A stretch of DNA of 64,000 bases, from positions 1-64,000 of the forward strand of contig QHSI01000106.1 of NCBI GenBank assembly GCA_003221515.1. Direction: 5' to 3'. Below, piece by piece: positions 1,677 to 46,397 of this stretch. The notes below the pieces were generated by a model. That model saw only the letters and a program-made list of their open reading frames with translations, did no database searches and had not been told where the DNA came from. Numbering within the stretch: position 1 is the first letter of the stretch; every line of letters starts with the position of its first letter. This DNA comes from Candidatus Rokuibacteriota bacterium. Lineage in GTDB: Bacteria > Methylomirabilota > Methylomirabilia > Rokubacteriales > CSP1-6. The position numbers and the translations under genes were made by a program.

Positions 1677-1682
1677 TATACT
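1677..1682 (+). promoter_or_regulatory. -10-like box TATACT, 10 nt before thiD (possible leaderless promoter)
   Basis: TATACT ends 10 nt before the thiD ATG at 1693. The short leader carries no Shine-Dalgarno sequence. If this is the -10 element, the transcript would start at or within a few bases of the ATG. No clear -35 box is seen. Four other genes in the window share the arrangement. Confidence 0.5.
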
Positions 1683-1692
1683 TCGAGCGGTT

Positions 1693-2481
1693 ATGAGCGT
1701 TCCCAAAGCCCTCACCATCGCCGGCTCCGATTCCGGTGGCGGCGCGGGCATCCAGGCGGATCTCAAGACCTTCTCGGCGTTCCGCGTGTTCGGGATGAGC
1801 GTGATCACCGCGGTCACCGCCCAGAACTCCGTCGGCGTCCAGGGCGTCTTCAACCTGCCGCCCGAGTTCGTCGGGCGCCAGATCGATTCGGTGCTCTCGG
1901 ACTTCGACGCCGACGCCGTGAAGATCGGGATGCTCTCGACGGCACCGATCATCGGCGTGGTGTCCGATCGCCTGCGCGCGCACGGCAAGGCCCGAGTCGT
2001 CCTCGATCCAGTGATGATCGCCAAATCGGGCGACGCGCTGCTCCAGCCGGACGCGCGCGCCGCGCTGGCCAAGGAGCTCCTGCCGCTGGCCCTCGTGGTC
2101 ACGCCGAACCTGCCCGAAGCGGCCGCGCTCGCCGAGATGGAGGTCACGACCGAGGCCGACATGGAGGAGGCGGCGCGGCGGATCCTGGCCCTCGGTCCCC
2201 GGAACGTGCTGGTGAAGGGTGGTCATCTGCGGGACTCGGCGACCGACATCCTGTGGAACGGGCGCGACTTCACGCGCTTCACCGCGCCGAGGCTGGCGTC
2301 GACCAGCACCCACGGCACCGGCTGCACGCTCTCGTCGGCGATCGCGGCGTGCCTGGCGCGCGGCCACGCGCTGCGGGACGCGATCAGCGAGGGCAAGGCG
2401 TACGTGACCGCCGCGATCCGCGAAGGGTTCCAGGCCGGGCGAGGCGTGGGCGCGCTCCGGCACTTCGTGACAGGCTGGTAA
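1693..2481 (+). CDS. thiD: Hydroxymethylpyrimidine (phosphomethylpyrimidine) kinase ThiD
   Basis: ThiD phosphorylates HMP and HMP-P to give HMP-PP for thiamine biosynthesis. The ribokinase-fold protein is 262 aa, normal for the family. It opens with TIAGSDSGGGAGIQADLK, has the AVTAQNS segment, DPVMIAKSGD and TPNLPEAA, and ends with the anion-hole motif STHGTGCTLSSAIAA. It stands apart from rsmI by 85 bp with its own promoter-like box, and no TPP riboswitch is visible upstream. Three ThDP-dependent enzyme genes elsewhere in the window would use the cofactor it helps make. Confidence 0.96.
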   Translation: MSVPKALTIAGSDSGGGAGIQADLKTFSAFRVFGMSVITAVTAQNSVGVQGVFNLPPEFVGRQIDSVLSDFDADAVKIGMLSTAPIIGVVSDRLRAHGKARVVLDPVMIAKSGDALLQPDARAALAKELLPLALVVTPNLPEAAALAEMEVTTEADMEEAARRILALGPRNVLVKGGHLRDSATDILWNGRDFTRFTAPRLASTSTHGTGCTLSSAIAACLARGHALRDAISEGKAYVTAAIREGFQAGRGVGALRHFVTGW

Positions 2482-15061: not shown

Positions 15062-15895
15062 TCATTGCAGCTTCCGGTATTTGCGGCCGACCGGGCAGAC
15101 GCGCATGCACTCGAAGCACTGGGCGATCGAGTCGCGGAAGAAGCCCAGGGACTGGATACTCCTGGTGAAGAAGTCGCTGTAGAGCATCGTGCGGCGGCGC
15201 GCCGGGTCGTCCTCGTTCACGATCTGGAGCAGGCCCTTCTGGAACGAGCCGATCCCGTAGGTCTGCGCCCGCGAGTGGCATTTCTCGCGATCGTAGGTCG
15301 ACTGCCGGATGCGCCCGTCCTGCACGGTTCCGCTGAGGCACGCCGGGCACACGCGCAGGCACGGCGTGGTCCCGATGCGCTTGTACATCGCGACGCAGCC
15401 GGGATGCGGACACGCGGGCTCGGCCAGCGGCGCGTCGGGCTCGAGCGGCAGCGTCGTGATGAGCGCCGCGTAGTAGAGCAGGCCGTACTCCGGGTTCAGG
15501 ATGATGTGCGCGGCCAGCGAGCGGGTGCCGAGGCCGGCCAGCTCGGCGGCGTGCATCATCGACATCGGCGGCTCGTGGCCGTGGACCGGCAGCGACGGCG
15601 CCTGGATCGCGTGGTGCGCCAGCGTGCCCTCGATGAAGTCGCACATCGCGTGGACCGCGACGTTCTCGCGGAGGTCGTAGCCGGTGATCTCCATCACGCG
15701 GTTGTCGGGGGAGCGCCACGCCCCGGCGGTCGGCCCGTCGCCGCCGGCGACCACCACGCTGCGCGCGCCGGGCAGGATGTCCTCCGGGCGGTAGCCCTCG
15801 GGCACCTTCTCCCGGAACGCCTCGACGGGCGCGATGCCGACCACGCGCGCGCCGGCCTTGAGGCCTACCGCCTTCACCTGCTCTTCACGCGTCAT
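15062..15895 (-). CDS. QueG-like / reductive-dehalogenase-like 4Fe-4S protein, paralogue 1
   Basis: A 277-aa paralogue of the downstream gene: LKAGARVVGIAPVEAF, PEDILPGARSVVVAGG, CPHPGCVAMYKRIGTTPC, VCPACLSG and CFECMRVCPVGRKYR. The shared C-terminal pattern suggests two iron-sulphur clusters fed from the same electron donor, and the N-terminal domain is where corrinoid binds in QueG and reductive dehalogenases. No Tat signal or membrane anchor is present, so it is cytoplasmic. It is the first gene of the leftward cluster, and its start lies 41 bp from the divergent acyl-CoA ligase. Function is unknown. Confidence 0.75.
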   Translation of the reverse strand: MTREEQVKAVGLKAGARVVGIAPVEAFREKVPEGYRPEDILPGARSVVVAGGDGPTAGAWRSPDNRVMEITGYDLRENVAVHAMCDFIEGTLAHHAIQAPSLPVHGHEPPMSMMHAAELAGLGTRSLAAHIILNPEYGLLYYAALITTLPLEPDAPLAEPACPHPGCVAMYKRIGTTPCLRVCPACLSGTVQDGRIRQSTYDREKCHSRAQTYGIGSFQKGLLQIVNEDDPARRRTMLYSDFFTRSIQSLGFFRDSIAQCFECMRVCPVGRKYRKLQ

Positions 15896-15921
15896 GACGG
15901 CCTCAGGATAATCCCCTCCGG

Positions 15922-15927
15922 TATAAT
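15922..15927 (+). promoter_or_regulatory. Consensus -10 box TATAAT, 9 nt before the acyl-CoA ligase ATG
   Basis: A perfect TATAAT ends 9 nt before the ATG at 15937 in an otherwise GC-rich 41-bp divergent gap. There is no Shine-Dalgarno between them. This is the best of five candidate leaderless promoters in the window. No clear -35 element is seen. Confidence 0.6.
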
Positions 15928-15936
15928 CCGCCCGGC

Positions 15937-17823
15937 ATGAATTTCAGCGCGTTGCGCGCCAGCACGCTGCCCGGGCTGCTCGTCGACCAGACGCAGACGC
16001 GCCCCGACCGCGTCGCGTATCGCTCGAAGGAGCTCGGCGTGTGGCGCGAGACGACGTGGCGCCAATACGCGGAGCGCGTGGCCGCAGTCGCGGTGGGCTT
16101 CGTGAGCGAGTACCGCGTGGCGCGCGGCGAGACGGTGGCGATCATCGGCAACCCGTGCCCGGAGTGGGCGATCGCCGATCTGGCGGCGCAGGCGCTCGGC
16201 GCGATCACCTACGGGATCTATCCGACCAGCGCGCCCGGCGAAGTGCGCCATCTCCTCCAGCACGGCGGCGCGTCGCTCGTGGTGGCCGAGGACCAGGAGC
16301 ACCTCGACAAGACCCTCGCGGTGCTGGACGAGTGCCCGGGCGTTCGCGTCGTGCTGGTGATCGACACCCGAGCGTTGTTCATGTACCGGAACGCGCGCGT
16401 GCGCCCGCTGGCCGAGGTCGAGCGCCTCGGTCGCAACGCGCTGGCCGGCGAGCCCGACGCGCTCGCCCAGCTGGTGCGGGCGCTGTCGTCCGAGGACGCC
16501 GCGACGATCATCTACACGTCGGGGACGACCGGACATCCGAAGGGCGCGGTGTACCGCCACGGCCCGCACCTGGCGGCGTGCGCCAACATCATCGCCCACT
16601 ATCCGCTCCTGGCCGCGCGCGAGCATCGCGCCGTCGCGATGCTGCCGCTCTGTCACGCGATGGGCCGAAACCTCGCGATCACGATGCCGCTCATGTCCGA
16701 GATCGTGCCGCACTACCCGGAGTCCATCGACACGTTCGCCGACGCGCTCTACGAGATCCAGCCGACGTTCGTCTTCACGGTGCCCCGCTACCTGCAGAAG
16801 TTCGCGGCCCACCTGCTGGTCGGGCTGGACCAGAGCTCCTGGATCAAGCGCGCGGCCTACCGCGCGGCGATGGCGGCCGGCCGGCGGGCGCTCGAGCTTC
16901 GCTGGAGCGGCGAGGGCATCGGCGCCCCGTGGCGGCTCTCGTCCAGGCTGGCGCGGGCGACCGTCTTCCACTGGCTGCTGGAGAAAGTGGGATTCGCCAG
17001 GGCCGAGCTGGTGATCTCGAGCGGTGCGCCACTGCCGCCGCCGGTCGCCATGCTCTGGCAGACGTGGGGCGTGAACCTCTGCGAGGCCTACGGCCAGACC
17101 GAGACGGGTGGCGCGCTCGTCACCGGCCAGCGTGGCCCCTATCCGCGCCCGGGCGACGTCGGCACCGGCGCGCCGAACATCGAGATCGAGCTGGACGCAG
17201 ACGGCGAGGTGCTGGTGAGCGCGCGGGAGTTCTTCGGCGGCTACTGGCGCGACCCGGACGCGACGCGGGCGCTGTACCGCGACGGCAAGCTGCTGACCGG
17301 CGACGTCGGCGAATGGACCGCCGCGCGCGCGCTCAAGCTGGTCGACCGCAAGAAGGACATCGTGATCACCGCGGGCGGTACGAACGTCAGCCCCTCGCGC
17401 GTCGAGAATCTCTTGCGGGCGAGCCCGTACATCAGCGAGGCCGCGGTGTTCGGCGAGGGCCGGCGCTACCTGGTGGCGCTGCTCGAGGTGGACGGCGAGA
17501 CGGTCGGCGAGTGGGCGCGTGAGCACGGCGTCGTGCACACGGGCTACGGGTCGCTGGTGGCGCACGCGGACGTGCAGGCGCTGATCGACGCCGAGGTGGG
17601 GCGCGCGAACGACGATCTCACGCGCGTCGAGCAGGTGAAGGCGTTCCGGCTCCTGCCGCGCGAGCTCGATCCCGAGCTCGAGGGCGAGCCGGTGACCCCG
17701 ACGCGTAAAGTGAAGCGGCGGCTCATGGCCGAGCGCTACGGCGAGCTGGTCGAGTCGATGTACGCCGAAGACGAGGAACAGCGGATCGCCGCCGAGGTGG
17801 CGGATCTCCAGACGGAGGATTGA
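15937..17823 (+). CDS. AMP-dependent acyl-CoA synthetase/ligase
   Basis: A 628-aa ANL-superfamily enzyme that adenylates a carboxylic acid and transfers it to CoA. The P-loop-like TIIYTSGTTGHPKGAVY lies near residue 190, YGQTETGGA near 388, and the hinge and C-terminal DRKKDIVITAGGTNVSPSR follow. Length and architecture match the FadD15-like long-chain or aryl-acid ligases often encoded next to branched-chain-type ABC transporters. It heads that operon: the binding-protein gene begins 1 bp after its stop. The likely role is to activate the imported acid; chain length or ring specificity cannot be read. Confidence 0.93.
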   Translation: MNFSALRASTLPGLLVDQTQTRPDRVAYRSKELGVWRETTWRQYAERVAAVAVGFVSEYRVARGETVAIIGNPCPEWAIADLAAQALGAITYGIYPTSAPGEVRHLLQHGGASLVVAEDQEHLDKTLAVLDECPGVRVVLVIDTRALFMYRNARVRPLAEVERLGRNALAGEPDALAQLVRALSSEDAATIIYTSGTTGHPKGAVYRHGPHLAACANIIAHYPLLAAREHRAVAMLPLCHAMGRNLAITMPLMSEIVPHYPESIDTFADALYEIQPTFVFTVPRYLQKFAAHLLVGLDQSSWIKRAAYRAAMAAGRRALELRWSGEGIGAPWRLSSRLARATVFHWLLEKVGFARAELVISSGAPLPPPVAMLWQTWGVNLCEAYGQTETGGALVTGQRGPYPRPGDVGTGAPNIEIELDADGEVLVSAREFFGGYWRDPDATRALYRDGKLLTGDVGEWTAARALKLVDRKKDIVITAGGTNVSPSRVENLLRASPYISEAAVFGEGRRYLVALLEVDGETVGEWAREHGVVHTGYGSLVAHADVQALIDAEVGRANDDLTRVEQVKAFRLLPRELDPELEGEPVTPTRKVKRRLMAERYGELVESMYAEDEEQRIAAEVADLQTED

Positions 17824-25750: not shown

Positions 25751-25756
25751 TATAGT
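25751..25756 (+). promoter_or_regulatory. -10-like box TATAGT, 9 nt before the small antitoxin-like gene
   Basis: TATAGT ends 9 nt before the ATG at 25766, with no Shine-Dalgarno in between. This is one of five such arrangements in the window and would make the two-gene nucleotidyltransferase module start from a leaderless mRNA. Confidence 0.5.
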
Positions 25757-25765
25757 CGAATCACG

Positions 25766-25993
25766 ATGCGCAGCGTCGCCGAAGAGCTCCGCGCCGATGA
25801 TCGTGCCGCGCTCCGAAGGCTGACGCCGAGCGAGCGCGTCGCGCTGGCGCTCGCGTTGGGCGCCCGCGATCTAGAGACCTTCCGCATGGCGCAGCGGCCG
25901 CCGCTTTCACCCTCGGAGGCCGTGCGTTCCCTGGAGCGGCGGCGCCAGGCGGGGCGCCTGCGCTCGCGCTGCATCGAGGAGCTCATCGGCTGA
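25766..25993 (+). CDS. Small helical protein, possible partner of the adjacent nucleotidyltransferase
   Basis: A 75-aa charged, helical protein (VAEELRADDRAALRRLTPSE... VRSLERRRQAGRLRSRCIEELIG). No family is recognised, but small Arg/Glu-rich proteins translationally coupled to an MNT/AbiEii-type nucleotidyltransferase are common in toxin-antitoxin-like pairs. Its stop overlaps the CTG start proposed for the next gene, and GAGGAG near its 3' end would serve as that gene's ribosome-binding site. Confidence 0.6.
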   Translation: MRSVAEELRADDRAALRRLTPSERVALALALGARDLETFRMAQRPPLSPSEAVRSLERRRQAGRLRSRCIEELIG

Positions 25994-26535
25994 GCCTGCT
26001 GCGCCCGGTCGTCGCGCTGCTTCGGGAGCGCGGGACCGCGTTCGCCGTGATCGGCGCGGCCGCGATGGCCGTCCACGGGGTGAGCCGCGCGACCCGCGAC
26101 ATCGACCTCTTCACGCTCTCCCAGGAATGTCTGGAGACGTCCTTCTGGACGTCGCTACGGACGACCGCCAGCATCGAGGCCTACGTCCGGAAGGGAGACG
26201 CCGCGGATCCTCTCGCCGGTGTCGTCAGGCTCACCGCGGCGGGCGAGAATCCGCTCGATGTCGTCGTCGGCAAGAGCTCCTGGCAACGGGCCGTGACCGA
26301 ACGCGCGCAGGACGCGGTGATCGAGGACGTGGCGGTCCGTGTGGCCGGCGCGCTCGATCTGATACTTCTCAAGTTGTACGCGGCCGGCCCACAGGACGCG
26401 TGGGACGTCGAGCAGCTGCTCACGGGCTCCGACGAGCCCGCACTGGTCGCTCAGATCGACGTGGCGGTCCGCGCGCTACCGCCGGATGGTCGGGCGCTTT
26501 GGGCGCGTATCCGGGCCGGGCGCCGCCCCGCCTGA
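25990..26535 (+). CDS. Nucleotidyltransferase-fold (AbiEii/MNT-like) protein, probable CTG start
   Basis: The motif IGAAAMAVHG...RATRDIDLF has the G-A-A/D-x-D pattern of polymerase-beta-like nucleotidyltransferases; DLILLKLYAAGPQDAWDVEQLL is the C-terminal helix shared with AbiEii-like and related proteins. The first ATG/GTG/TTG in frame is GTG at 26047, which would remove the helix before the motif. CTG at 25990 gives LSLLRPVVALLRERGTAFAV, overlaps the upstream TGA as CTGA, and has GAGGAG eight bases upstream. With it the protein is 181 aa. It could be a toxin of a TA pair or a simple NTase of unknown target. Confidence 0.78.
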   Translation: MSLLRPVVALLRERGTAFAVIGAAAMAVHGVSRATRDIDLFTLSQECLETSFWTSLRTTASIEAYVRKGDAADPLAGVVRLTAAGENPLDVVVGKSSWQRAVTERAQDAVIEDVAVRVAGALDLILLKLYAAGPQDAWDVEQLLTGSDEPALVAQIDVAVRALPPDGRALWARIRAGRRPA

Positions 26536-40988: not shown

Positions 40989-40994
40989 TACACT
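40989..40994 (+). promoter_or_regulatory. -10-like box TACACT, 8 nt before the Fpg/Nei gene
   Basis: TACACT ends 8 nt before the ATG at 41003, with no Shine-Dalgarno. It fits the leaderless arrangement seen at four other starts in the window. Confidence 0.45.
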
Positions 40995-41002
40995 ACCGCC
41001 CG

Positions 41003-41845
41003 ATGCCCGAGCTTCCTGAGGTCGAAGCCGCGCGGCGGCTGCTCACGCGCACGGCGGTTGGACGGCGCATCGTCACGGTCAACGTCGTGCGCGACCCGAT
41101 CGTATTCCAGGGCGTGAGCCCGGCGCGCGTGCGGAGGGCGCTGCTCGGACGCCGAATCCTGGCGGCACGGCGGCATGGCAAGCATCTGTGGCTCGAGCTC
41201 GACGGCCGCCCCTGGCCCTGCATCCACTTCGGGATGTCCGGCGAGATCGAAGTCCGTGGCCAGCGCCGCGGCCGATTGATGACCGAGGGCCGTCGCGCGA
41301 ACCAGGACGTCTGGCCACCGCGTTTTCTCCGCCTGCTCCTCGCGCTCGACGACGGCACCGAAGTCGCGTTTCGCGACGCGCGCCGGCTCGGCCGCGTGCG
41401 CCTGCGCCACGACCCGCGCGCGGAGCCGCCGATCAGCCTGCTCGGCTTCGACGCCCTCCACGAGCTGCCACCCCTACGTCGGCTCATCGCGCTCTGCGGC
41501 GAGCGCGCGGCGCCGATCAAGGCCCTGCTGCTCGATCAGTCGTTCTCGGCGGGCGTCGGGAACTGGATCGCCGACGAGGTGCTCTATCAAGCCCGCATCG
41601 ACCCACGCCGGCGCGCGCACACGCTGACGGCGGCCGAAGTCGGACGCATCCGCGCCCAGCTACGTCTCGTCATCACCACCGCGGTGCGCGCCGGCGCCGA
41701 CAGCGACCGGTTCCCCGCGAAGTGGCTCTTTCACACGCGATGGAGCAAGCGCGAGCGGCGTCCGATGACGGTGAGTGGCGAGCGCATCCGGTATCTCACC
41801 GTCGGCGGGCGTACCACGGCGTGGGTTGCTGAGGTTCAGCGCTAG
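41003..41845 (+). CDS. Formamidopyrimidine-DNA glycosylase family protein with zinc-less finger
   Basis: A 280-aa Fpg/Nei DNA glycosylase/AP lyase for oxidised bases. The catalytic N-terminus PELPEVEAARR (Pro2, Glu3) is intact, and the H2TH domain (LLDQSFSAGVGNWIADEVLYQA) is present. Bacterial Fpg normally ends with a four-Cys zinc finger; here there are no such cysteines and the C-terminus reads WLFHTRWSKRERRP ... YLTVGGRTTAWVAEVQR, matching the zinc-less finger of plant and fungal FPG1 and NEIL1-type enzymes. The ATG choice is forced because Pro2 is the nucleophile. Confidence 0.95.
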   Translation: MPELPEVEAARRLLTRTAVGRRIVTVNVVRDPIVFQGVSPARVRRALLGRRILAARRHGKHLWLELDGRPWPCIHFGMSGEIEVRGQRRGRLMTEGRRANQDVWPPRFLRLLLALDDGTEVAFRDARRLGRVRLRHDPRAEPPISLLGFDALHELPPLRRLIALCGERAAPIKALLLDQSFSAGVGNWIADEVLYQARIDPRRRAHTLTAAEVGRIRAQLRLVITTAVRAGADSDRFPAKWLFHTRWSKRERRPMTVSGERIRYLTVGGRTTAWVAEVQR

Positions 41846-43793: not shown

Positions 43794-44903
43794 CCTGATT
43801 TCCGTGGGCTCGCCGGCGCGCGGGGCCGCCGCGGGCGCCGTCCCGAGCTTCTTGAGCGCGGGCATCACCTCGGTGGCGAACAGCCGCATATTGCGCTCGG
43901 CCTCGTCGTAGGGCATACCGGCGTACGAGAACACGCCCACGAAGTGGCTGTTGCCCACGCGGTCGCGCACGTCGAGGATCTTCTCGAAGCACTGCTCGGG
44001 CGTGCCGTACACCTGAAGGTCGGTGAAGTAGTCGATGACCTTGTCGGTGCCGTACTGCGCGATCTTCTCCGACATCTTGCCGTAGTACTCGTAGCCCTTC
44101 GTGTGGGTCAGGTGATCACCGGCGAACTGGTAGTGGTCGAGCACGGTCAGGTAGTAACCGCCGATCCAGCGGCGCGCCATCTCGCGGGCCCGCGCGGCGC
44201 TCGGGTCGCAGAAGGTCCAGCCGGCCGACACCGGCGGCGGCGCGTCCACGCCGTTGATCTCGCGGTAGATCCCCCGGTAGGTGTCGAGCTCGCGCGCGAC
44301 TTCCGGCCACGGCTTTTGGGGAATGATCAGGAGGCCGACGCCGAGGCGAGCGATGATCGGCATCGAGTCCGGCGAGACGGCGGCGGCGTAGGCGCGGCCG
44401 CGGAACGACTTGAACGGCGCCGGCCGGATCGCCGCGCGGGGCTGGTGCACGAACTGTCCCTGGTACTCGCAGTAGCCGGTCTCGAGCCCGTGTAGCAGCA
44501 TCTCGGCGGATTCGACGAAACGCTGGCGCGACTCGTCCATCGAGAGGCGGAAACCGTCGAACTCGACCTTGCCGGCACCGCGCCCGAGGCCCAGGATGAG
44601 CCGGCCGCCGGAGATGCTGTCGAGCATCGAGACTTCCTCGGCGACCCGCATCGGATCGTGCCACGGCAGGACGACCACCATCGAGCCGAGCTGCGCGCGC
44701 TCCGTGCGCCCGGCCATGTAGGTGAGGAACTGGAGCACGTCCGGACACATCGTATAGTCGGTGAAGTGGTGCTCGACGCCCCAGATCGACTCGAACCCCA
44801 GCGGCTCGGCGAGGTCGGCGAGCCTGAGCTCGTTGCGGTAGACCTCGCGATCGGCGCGCGCCTTGCCGGGATTCTGAAAGACGGCGGCCATTCCGACGTG
44901 CAT
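43779..44903 (-). CDS. LLM-class flavin-dependent monooxygenase
   Basis: A 374-aa luciferase-like (F420 or FMNH2) TIM-barrel oxidoreductase. MHVGMAAVFQNPG at the start, FESIWGVEHHFTDY, SMVVVLPWHDPMRVAEEVSMLD and GRLILGLGRGAG are the family hallmarks. A Shine-Dalgarno (GGGGAG) precedes the ATG at 44903. It oxidises an unknown small molecule, and a linked reductase is not visible. It is transcribed towards nudC and diverges from pepP across a 36-bp gap. Confidence 0.92.
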   Translation of the reverse strand: MHVGMAAVFQNPGKARADREVYRNELRLADLAEPLGFESIWGVEHHFTDYTMCPDVLQFLTYMAGRTERAQLGSMVVVLPWHDPMRVAEEVSMLDSISGGRLILGLGRGAGKVEFDGFRLSMDESRQRFVESAEMLLHGLETGYCEYQGQFVHQPRAAIRPAPFKSFRGRAYAAAVSPDSMPIIARLGVGLLIIPQKPWPEVARELDTYRGIYREINGVDAPPPVSAGWTFCDPSAARAREMARRWIGGYYLTVLDHYQFAGDHLTHTKGYEYYGKMSEKIAQYGTDKVIDYFTDLQVYGTPEQCFEKILDVRDRVGNSHFVGVFSYAGMPYDEAERNMRLFATEVMPALKKLGTAPAAAPRAGEPTEIRALGF

Positions 44904-44926
44904 AGGAGGCTCCCCTTTCGCCGTTG

Positions 44927-44932
44927 TATTAT
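44927..44932 (+). promoter_or_regulatory. -10-like box TATTAT, 7 nt before pepP
   Basis: TATTAT ends 7 nt before the ATG at 44940, so a transcript starting at the usual distance would begin at the ATG itself. There is no Shine-Dalgarno. Read on the other strand the same AT-rich patch gives TAATAC, a possible -10 for the divergent flavoprotein gene. Confidence 0.5.
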
Positions 44933-44939
44933 TGCGCCG

Positions 44940-46397
44940 ATGAGCCCATTCGATCCAGCCCCCTTCGTGGAACGGCGCCAGCGGTTCGCGGCGGCGATCG
45001 GTGATGCGCTGGCCATCATCCCCGGCGCGCAGGAGCTCCGGCGCAACAACGACGTCAACTACGAGTTCCGGCAGGCCTCCGACTTCTTCTTCCTGACAGG
45101 ATTCGACGAGCCCGACGCCGTCGCCGTCATCAATCCGGCCGACGCCAAGGAGCGCTTCGTGCTCTTCGTGCGCCCGCGCGACCGCGAGATGGAGATCTGG
45201 AACGGACGGCGCGCCGGGGTCGAGGGCGCCATCGCGACCTTCGGCGCGGATGCCGCCTACACGATCGACCGGCTCGACGACAAGCTGCGCGAGTACATGA
45301 TCGACCGGCCGACGGTCTACTACCGCCTGGGCAGCGGCTCGTTCGACGGCCGGGTGACGCGGCTGATCTCCGAGCTGCGCGGAGCCCGCGCCCGCGGCTA
45401 CGCGGCGCCCCTGCGCGTGGAGGATCCCGGGCCCATCCTGAGCGAGTTGCGACTGCGCCGCTCGGATGCCGAGCTGGCGCGCCACCGTCGGGCCTGCGAG
45501 ATCAGCCGCGACGCGCACACCGAGGCGATGCGCTACGCGCGCCCCGGGCTCTACGAGTACCAGGTGCAGGCGGCGCTCGAGTTCGTCTTCCGCGCCAGCG
45601 GCTCGCCCCGCAACGGCTATCCGTCCATCGTGGCGTCGGGCGCCAACGCGTGCATCCTCCACTACACCGAGAACACGCGACGGATGGAGGACGGCGACCT
45701 GCTCTTGATCGACGCCGGCTGCGAGTGGGGCTACTACTCGGCTGACATCACCCGCACGTTCCCCGTCAACGGCCGGTTCACGGCCGCCCAGCGCGCGGTC
45801 TACGAGATCGTCCTGCGCGCCCAGCTCGCCGGCATCGCCGCCGCGCGGCCCGGGAACCGCTACGAGGCGATCCACGAGGCCGCGCGGCGTGTCCTCACCG
45901 AGGGGCTCGTCGCGCTCGGCGCGCTGCCCCGCGGGCTCGAGGAATCGCTCGCGATGCACCACTACCGGGAGTTCTACATGCACGGTACCGGCCACTGGCT
46001 CGGCATGGACGTGCACGACGTCGGCGACTACCGGATCGATCGGAAGTCACGCCTCCTCGAGCCCGGCATGGTGCTGACGGTCGAGCCGGGCCTCTACTTC
46101 GATCCCGGTCGCGAGACCGTCACCTATCATCTGCGCGAGTACGGCGAGGAGGAGATGTGGGAGCGCCGTCTCCGCCTCGGCGCCGCCACCGCCAGGAAGA
46201 TGGAGGACGAGGAGAAGGCGAAGGCCGAGAAAGTCTCGCACGGCGTCCCCCGCGAGCTGCGCGGGATCGGCATCCGGATCGAGGACGACGTGCTGATCAC
46301 CGATACGGGCTGCGAGGTGCTCACCGCGGGCACGCCGAAGACCATCGACGAGGTCGAGCGCGCCTGCGCGGAGCCGCCGCGGCTGCCGCGGCCCTGA
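44940..46397 (+). CDS. pepP: Xaa-Pro aminopeptidase (PepP family)
   Basis: A 485-aa M24B metallopeptidase that removes N-terminal residues preceding proline. The N-terminal creatinase-like domain contains NYEFRQASDFFFLTGF. The metal ligands of the catalytic domain are visible: LLIDAGCEWGYYSADITRTF (two Asp), HGTGHWLGMDVHD (His), TVEPGLYFDP (Glu) and RIEDDVLIT (Glu). The charged insert KMEDEEKAKAEKVSH near the C-terminus is typical of PepP. Identity is secure. Confidence 0.95.
   Translation: MSPFDPAPFVERRQRFAAAIGDALAIIPGAQELRRNNDVNYEFRQASDFFFLTGFDEPDAVAVINPADAKERFVLFVRPRDREMEIWNGRRAGVEGAIATFGADAAYTIDRLDDKLREYMIDRPTVYYRLGSGSFDGRVTRLISELRGARARGYAAPLRVEDPGPILSELRLRRSDAELARHRRACEISRDAHTEAMRYARPGLYEYQVQAALEFVFRASGSPRNGYPSIVASGANACILHYTENTRRMEDGDLLLIDAGCEWGYYSADITRTFPVNGRFTAAQRAVYEIVLRAQLAGIAAARPGNRYEAIHEAARRVLTEGLVALGALPRGLEESLAMHHYREFYMHGTGHWLGMDVHDVGDYRIDRKSRLLEPGMVLTVEPGLYFDPGRETVTYHLREYGEEEMWERRLRLGAATARKMEDEEKAKAEKVSHGVPRELRGIGIRIEDDVLITDTGCEVLTAGTPKTIDEVERACAEPPRLPRP

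Follow-up and report, generated by a model that had tools for sequence, protein, structure and literature searches.

The acyl-CoA ligase-like gene of a Candidatus Rokuibacteriota bacterium (GenBank assembly GCA_003221515.1, contig QHSI01000106.1) is preceded, a few nucleotides before its ATG, by the hexamer TATAAT, which raises the question of whether a promoter can lie so close to a start codon and, if it does, how the resulting message is translated. The gene is part of a window of 64,000 nucleotides, the whole stretch of DNA that was analysed, which has a GC content of 70% and belongs to a contig of 175,536 bases (C64) in an assembly of 5.10 Mb and 191 contigs. The original prediction had named five genes in this window with a TANNNT box 7-10 nt before the ATG and without a Shine-Dalgarno (SD) sequence, and had read the boxes as candidate leaderless promoters. 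The analysis presented here suggests that the five boxes are very probably -10 elements of σ70-type promoters, from which transcription would start 0-4 nt before the start codon, and that the messages would be translated in the leaderless mode.

Materials and methods

Enrichment was scored for TANNNT at distances of 5-10 nt upstream of the start codon, with the expectation taken from positions 15-63. First genes were defined as those with an upstream gap of at least 60 nt or a divergent neighbour, and genes less than 70 nt from the end of a stretch or with N upstream were left out. Genes were called with GC3-based training in all genomes except the outgroup G025, a single-contig genome of the same class with 58.5% GC, which we read as Methylomirabilis-like; family f1, called the family below, is likewise our reading as a Rokubacteriales family. 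Five genome samples of the family were counted, and the sample of the present genome comprised 41 stretches with a total of 583 kb. Promoter anatomy was aligned over the 95 candidate boxes of the five family samples, chance boxes included. For the lineage comparison, matches to TATAAT-N4-9-ATG and TATAAT-N24-29-ATG were counted in 95 genomes of the phylum. Rows left out of the conservation analysis were L029 (5' end of the acyl-CoA ligase gene, acl, absent), L060 and L077-L079 (thiD partial or secondary), L088 and L093 (Fpg partial), and L108-L110 and L112 (pepP partial, distant, or with N).

Results

The five boxes and their genes

All five boxes were found at exactly the positions given in the original prediction, and a gene caller that uses codon statistics only returned identical starts for all five genes (Table 1). 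The absence of SD sequences was likewise borne out, as no SD-like core was found between -18 and -4 at any of the five; four genes were scanned and pepP was judged from the sequence, because a rival longer ORF made the scan take another pepP start. The start of the Fpg gene is fixed at its ATG by the catalytic proline, which we take to be residue 2, and by the Pfam match from residue 1. No match in Pfam or NCBIfam was found for the 75-aa antitoxin-like protein, and the gene downstream of it matches AbiEii at 0.0017, under the cut-off; the two (25766-26532) are possibly a type IV toxin-antitoxin pair.

A sixth box, TATCCT, had been overlooked; it lies on the minus strand opposite the acyl-CoA ligase box. 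The gene that it precedes has weak matches to reductive dehalogenase or QueG-type models, all under curated cut-offs, and a GAGG between box and ATG was scored as SD-like by the scan.

Table 1. Candidate -10 boxes, the genes that they precede, and divergent partners in the window
Feature	Position	Strand	Remarks
thiD -10 box TATACT	1677..1682	+	N10 to ATG 1693
thiD, hydroxymethylpyrimidine phosphate kinase	1693..2481	+	Pfam PF08543, 2e-97; start by codon statistics
acl divergent neighbour	15062..15895	-	Pfam: no match
Divergent neighbour's -10 box TATCCT	15905..15910	-	9 nt before ATG at 15895
acl divergent gap, 41 bp, two back-to-back -10 boxes	15896..15936	.	From sequence; conserved in relatives
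Acyl-CoA ligase -10 box TATAAT	15922..15927	+	N9 to ATG 15937
Acyl-CoA ligase-like gene (AMP-binding; acl)	15937..17823	+	Pfam PF00501, 2.8e-59
Antitoxin-like gene's -10 box TATAGT	25751..25756	+	N9 to ATG 25766
Antitoxin-like gene, 75 aa	25766..25990	+	Upstream of weak AbiEii-like nucleotidyltransferase 26047-26532
Fpg/Nei -10 box TACACT	40989..40994	+	N8 to ATG 41003
Fpg/Nei DNA glycosylase	41003..41845	+	N-terminus MPELPEV; Pfam PF01149 from residue 1
pepP -10 box TATTAT	44927..44932	+	N7 to ATG 44940
Candidate minus-strand -10 AATAAT	44928..44933	-	Putative; overlaps pepP box
pepP, aminopeptidase P	44940..46397	+	Pfam PF00557, PF05195

TANNNT enrichment before called genes

The original prediction had proposed a genome-wide search for TANNNT enrichment at this position, and the search proved positive, with 78 boxes at the first genes of the five family samples against 22.9 expected (n=533); about 23 of the 78 would be chance boxes. 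The excess extends to genes with gaps of 30-59 nt (11 vs 4.0 expected, n=108) and to operon-internal genes (18 vs 2.8, n=591), and the box position peaks 6-10 nt before the start. In the present genome the corresponding counts are 35 vs 10.2 (n=230), 6 vs 1.3 (n=49) and 7 vs 1.2 (n=245). First genes show the excess in four of the five family samples; the fifth, G069 (100 kb), is without it (1 vs 1.3), and has 2 operon-internal boxes where 0.1 are expected. No excess was found at the first genes of the outgroup G025 (12 vs 11.8, n=170), which has 0 boxes against 1.7 at gaps of 30-59 nt (n=25) and 1 against 3.6 at operon-internal genes (n=107). That such boxes are unlikely by chance therefore holds for the set, as the 230 first genes of this genome attest, while a single box alone is weak, since chance is expected to place TANNNT at 5-10 nt in ~4% of genes preceded by a gap.

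The internal genes, which had been taken to be promoterless and often SD-led, live up to only half of that description. SD-like cores are present in 104 of the 235 boxless internal genes (shuffling the sequences of all 241 gives 21%), whereas the 18 internal boxes speak against freedom from promoters. The operon-internal excess, located at 6-9 nt, suggests promoters within the ends of upstream genes.

Anatomy of the candidate promoters and Shine-Dalgarno sequences

The 95 candidate boxes have A at position 4 with a frequency of 0.53, and a TGn-like extended -10 with frequencies of 0.38 for T and 0.53 for G. At spacers of 16-18 nt, 10 cases matched TTGACA in at least 5/6 positions, as against 2 over the other 23 spacers tried; a clear -35 is thus seen in 10/95, and most candidate promoters are without one. 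The elements of a σ70-type promoter, namely a TATAAT-like -10 together with TTGACA at 16-18 nt or an extended TGn, are therefore found with a weak -35. This anatomy is that of a housekeeping σ70-type promoter whose strong -35 is usually absent, and it points to the main σ factor as the probable partner.

As a rule, transcription begins about 7 nt after a -10 box, so that the leader would equal the spacing minus 6, which gives predicted leaders of 4 nt for thiD, 3 nt for acl and the antitoxin-like gene, 2 nt for Fpg and 1 nt for pepP. The reading as leaderless promoters fits the enrichment at this spacing, the exclusion of SD sequences and the conservation of box and ATG (see below); with spacings of 7-10 nt and leaders of 1-4 nt, near-leaderless would be the more exact term. 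SD-like cores occur at 8 of the 77 first genes with a box in the family samples, and at 189 of the 456 without. A 16S gene, sought for its anti-SD, was not found in this assembly.

Divergent gene pairs

The boxes are found mainly at divergently transcribed neighbours, a feature that is new here. Divergent genes of the family samples carry 65 boxes against 14.4 expected (n=290); codirectional genes with gaps of at least 60 nt are weakly enriched (13 vs 8.4, n=243). In divergent gaps of 15-65 bp a box is found at 31 of 74 genes, dinucleotide shuffles giving 5.5 (maximum 12 of 500), as compared with 13 of 132 genes in gaps >130 bp (Fisher 2e-7). Two promoters facing away from each other in one short gap, the hallmark of overlapping divergent promoters, are present as boxes at both starts in 10 of the 37 pairs whose gap measures 15-65 bp (shuffles 0.31, maximum 3), a number modestly above the 6.5 expected under independence at the per-gene rate. 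Gaps of this size separate 37 of the 145 divergent pairs sampled in the family vs 0 of 17, a small number, in the outgroup sample.

The acl gap has hardly changed among relatives, unlike the two drifting genes beside it, and its conservation extends past the -10, where a regulator site may overlap. In an aminotransferase pair with a 45-bp gap (L007), one box is kept at 10 of 11 loci, the facing TATAAT at 9 of 11; in another pair, L012, the spacing of 34 is kept only in G048. In the window, pepP has a divergent partner 36 bp away, a luciferase-like monooxygenase gene (Pfam PF00296) whose ATG is at 44903. This partner carries an SD-like GGGGAG at 44910-44915, and the minus-strand AATAAT that overlaps the pepP box may be its -10; in this pair (44901-44942) pepP looks leaderless and its partner SD-led.

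Counts without gene calls and spread across lineages

Counts that need no gene calls gave the same picture. The whole genome contains 24 matches to TATAAT-N4-9-ATG (22 distinct boxes) vs 1 for the reversed pattern; of the 52 matches to TATAAT-N0-30-ATG, the remaining 28 are spread over the 25 spacings other than N4-9. Across the phylum, N4-9 exceeds N24-29 in 57 of 57 genomes of the family (988 vs 286 matches). The counts are 17 vs 2 in f2, 24 vs 8 in f4, 58 vs 50 in f5 (7 genomes), 97 vs 119 in f6 (7 genomes), 4 vs 14 in f8, 42 vs 47 in f9, and 385 vs 363 in the outgroup family f10 (15 genomes), and the order-level relative f3 has a short/long ratio of 1.0 (10 vs 10). Short spacing thus characterizes the Rokubacteria side. 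The outgroup family f7 (G015-G018, 4 genomes) also favours short spacing (21 vs 9), so that the trait may extend beyond the Rokubacteria order.

These counts bear on the possibility of an artefact of chance or start calling, in which a stop codon (TAA, TAG) or an AT-rich word just before a called start would mimic TANNNT. Some 4% of first genes are indeed expected to carry a box by chance, but the outgroup, passed through the same type of pipeline, is without an excess, the divergent-gap shuffles fall far below the 31 boxes observed, and the counts free of gene calls agree. We regard such an artefact as extremely improbable, and as an explanation of the whole set it is refuted by the outgroup, the shuffles and the gene-call-free counts, single non-conserved sites aside.

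Conservation among relatives

Box and ATG are conserved against drifting flanks at all five genes, to varying depth. Of the 16 family genomes that include the 5' end of thiD, 15 have TATACT adjacent to the start, at a distance of 8-10 nt from the ATG. Although the box identity of 1.00 merely reflects the choice of these 15 box-bearing genomes, a G, which was not a selection criterion, directly precedes the box in 15/15, and the 7th nucleotide past it is G in 11/15; the flanks have pairwise identities of 0.30-0.34, i.e. they are unrelated. In the outgroup family f10, a GGAG-type, SD-like block stands before the thiD start in 5 of 6 loci, and this contrast makes a switch between initiation modes traceable. 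The named relatives of the acyl-CoA ligase in the genome collection all come from Candidatus Rokuibacteriota assemblies (9/9), and box and spacing are identical in seven of the nine loci; L027, with TAGAAT at 12 nt, was excluded from this count. The divergent neighbour's TATCCT is present in 6 of 9 compared loci. Fpg has TACACT at 6 or 8 nt in 8/8 genus genomes with the 5' end, and pepP has an identical box and spacing in 9/9 genus genomes; beyond the genus, four of five loci of each gene have lost the box at the aligned start, the fifth having a different TANNNT in Fpg and retaining a box in pepP. At the antitoxin-like gene, TATAGT is found at 7-9 nt in 3 of 4 loci.

If the boxes were -10 elements and the real start codons lay farther downstream, the mRNAs would have normal leaders. 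The starts are, after all, predictions, and G071, G092 and G094 keep the thiD TATACT farther from the start. However, the ATG is conserved at a fixed spacing while the flanks drift, codon statistics give the same starts, the presumed position of the catalytic proline pins the start of Fpg, and SD-like cores are rare at box-bearing genes; downstream starts are accordingly very unlikely. The conserved stretches might instead be operators of regulators rather than promoters, which would suit the acl gap with its conserved stretch of ~24 nt around the box. Identity over -24 to -1 is 0.98 in the seven acl loci, as compared with 0.87 in the first 300 coding nucleotides, and in L028 the last 24 nt are still conserved though the sequence farther upstream is unrelated (0.25). 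Across genes, though, the -10 consensus and the spacing are the only common features, and thiD conserves little outside its box, so we hold operators in place of promoters to be highly improbable; at acl, operator and promoter could both be true.

Discussion

Taking the boxes as -10 elements, we propose that RNA polymerase with the main σ factor would recognize the -10 and start transcription within a few nucleotides of the ATG. With a start 0-4 nt before the ATG, the messages would have no room for an SD sequence, and the ribosome would take the start codon at the 5' end of the mRNA. The trait would belong to the Rokubacteria lineage and be most used between divergent genes, with gaps of about 35-65 bp accommodating two back-to-back -10 boxes. 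In tight gaps each -10 would lie inside its partner's spacer or -35 region, and a polymerase bound to one should therefore exclude another. More tentatively, and with rather more doubt than confidence, we suggest a genome-scale layout of divergent promoter islands (about 35-65 bp) in Rokubacteria, in which the -10s abut both starts, each -35 overlaps the -10 or the first codons of the partner, and the two genes might be transcribed in turn, never together, with neither message having a leader.

On this evidence a deep, uncultivated soil lineage would join the bacteria that use leaderless genes, and it offers a contrast within one class, the box excess being present across the Rokubacteria family and absent in the sampled outgroup. 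Gene finders that expect SD sequences may misplace starts in Rokubacteria genomes. Within the open-licence literature, no report was found of leaderless genes in Rokubacteria, Methylomirabilota or Methylomirabilis, nor of Rokubacteria promoters together with SD sequences; for Methylomirabilota and leaderless, that literature yielded only a soil coassembly study that mentions the latter. We regard Rokubacteria as a new lineage for leaderless genes, and the association of leaderless starts with very short divergent gaps as the aspect that merits follow-up.

A TANNNT located some 10 bp upstream of the start is an established sign of leaderless genes in Actinobacteria and Deinococcus-Thermus, according to Zheng et al. 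2011 (PMC3160421). Rokubacteria resemble the TA-like leaderless genes described there, with a TANNNT core enriched about 10 bp upstream, SD sequences rare at boxed genes, a high-GC genome, and SD-led genes alongside. The group averages given there are 19.2% and 39.4%, whereas in the Rokubacteria samples TANNNT alone yields an excess of ~6% of genes, a lower bound because other -10 variants were not counted. The strong link to divergent pairs also sets Rokubacteria apart; the word "divergent" is absent from the main text of PMC3160421. In Deinococcus-Thermus, a -10 adjoining the ORF start has been experimentally shown to drive leaderless expression, as PMC12340547 describes; the -10 lies beside the start in both systems. 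The main text of that paper does not mention Rokubacteria or Methylomirabilota; common phyla are the subject of its figure S7.

Single cases of overlapping divergent promoters that include a leaderless member have been described. In lysG-lysE of Mycobacterium tuberculosis (PMC5648196), the divergent promoters overlap and one transcript is leaderless. The Rokubacteria pairs likewise combine divergent genes with overlapping candidate promoters. Unlike lysG-lysE, which has a 108-bp gap and a regulator, they have gaps of 15-65 bp and boxes at both starts in more than a quarter of such pairs (10/37).
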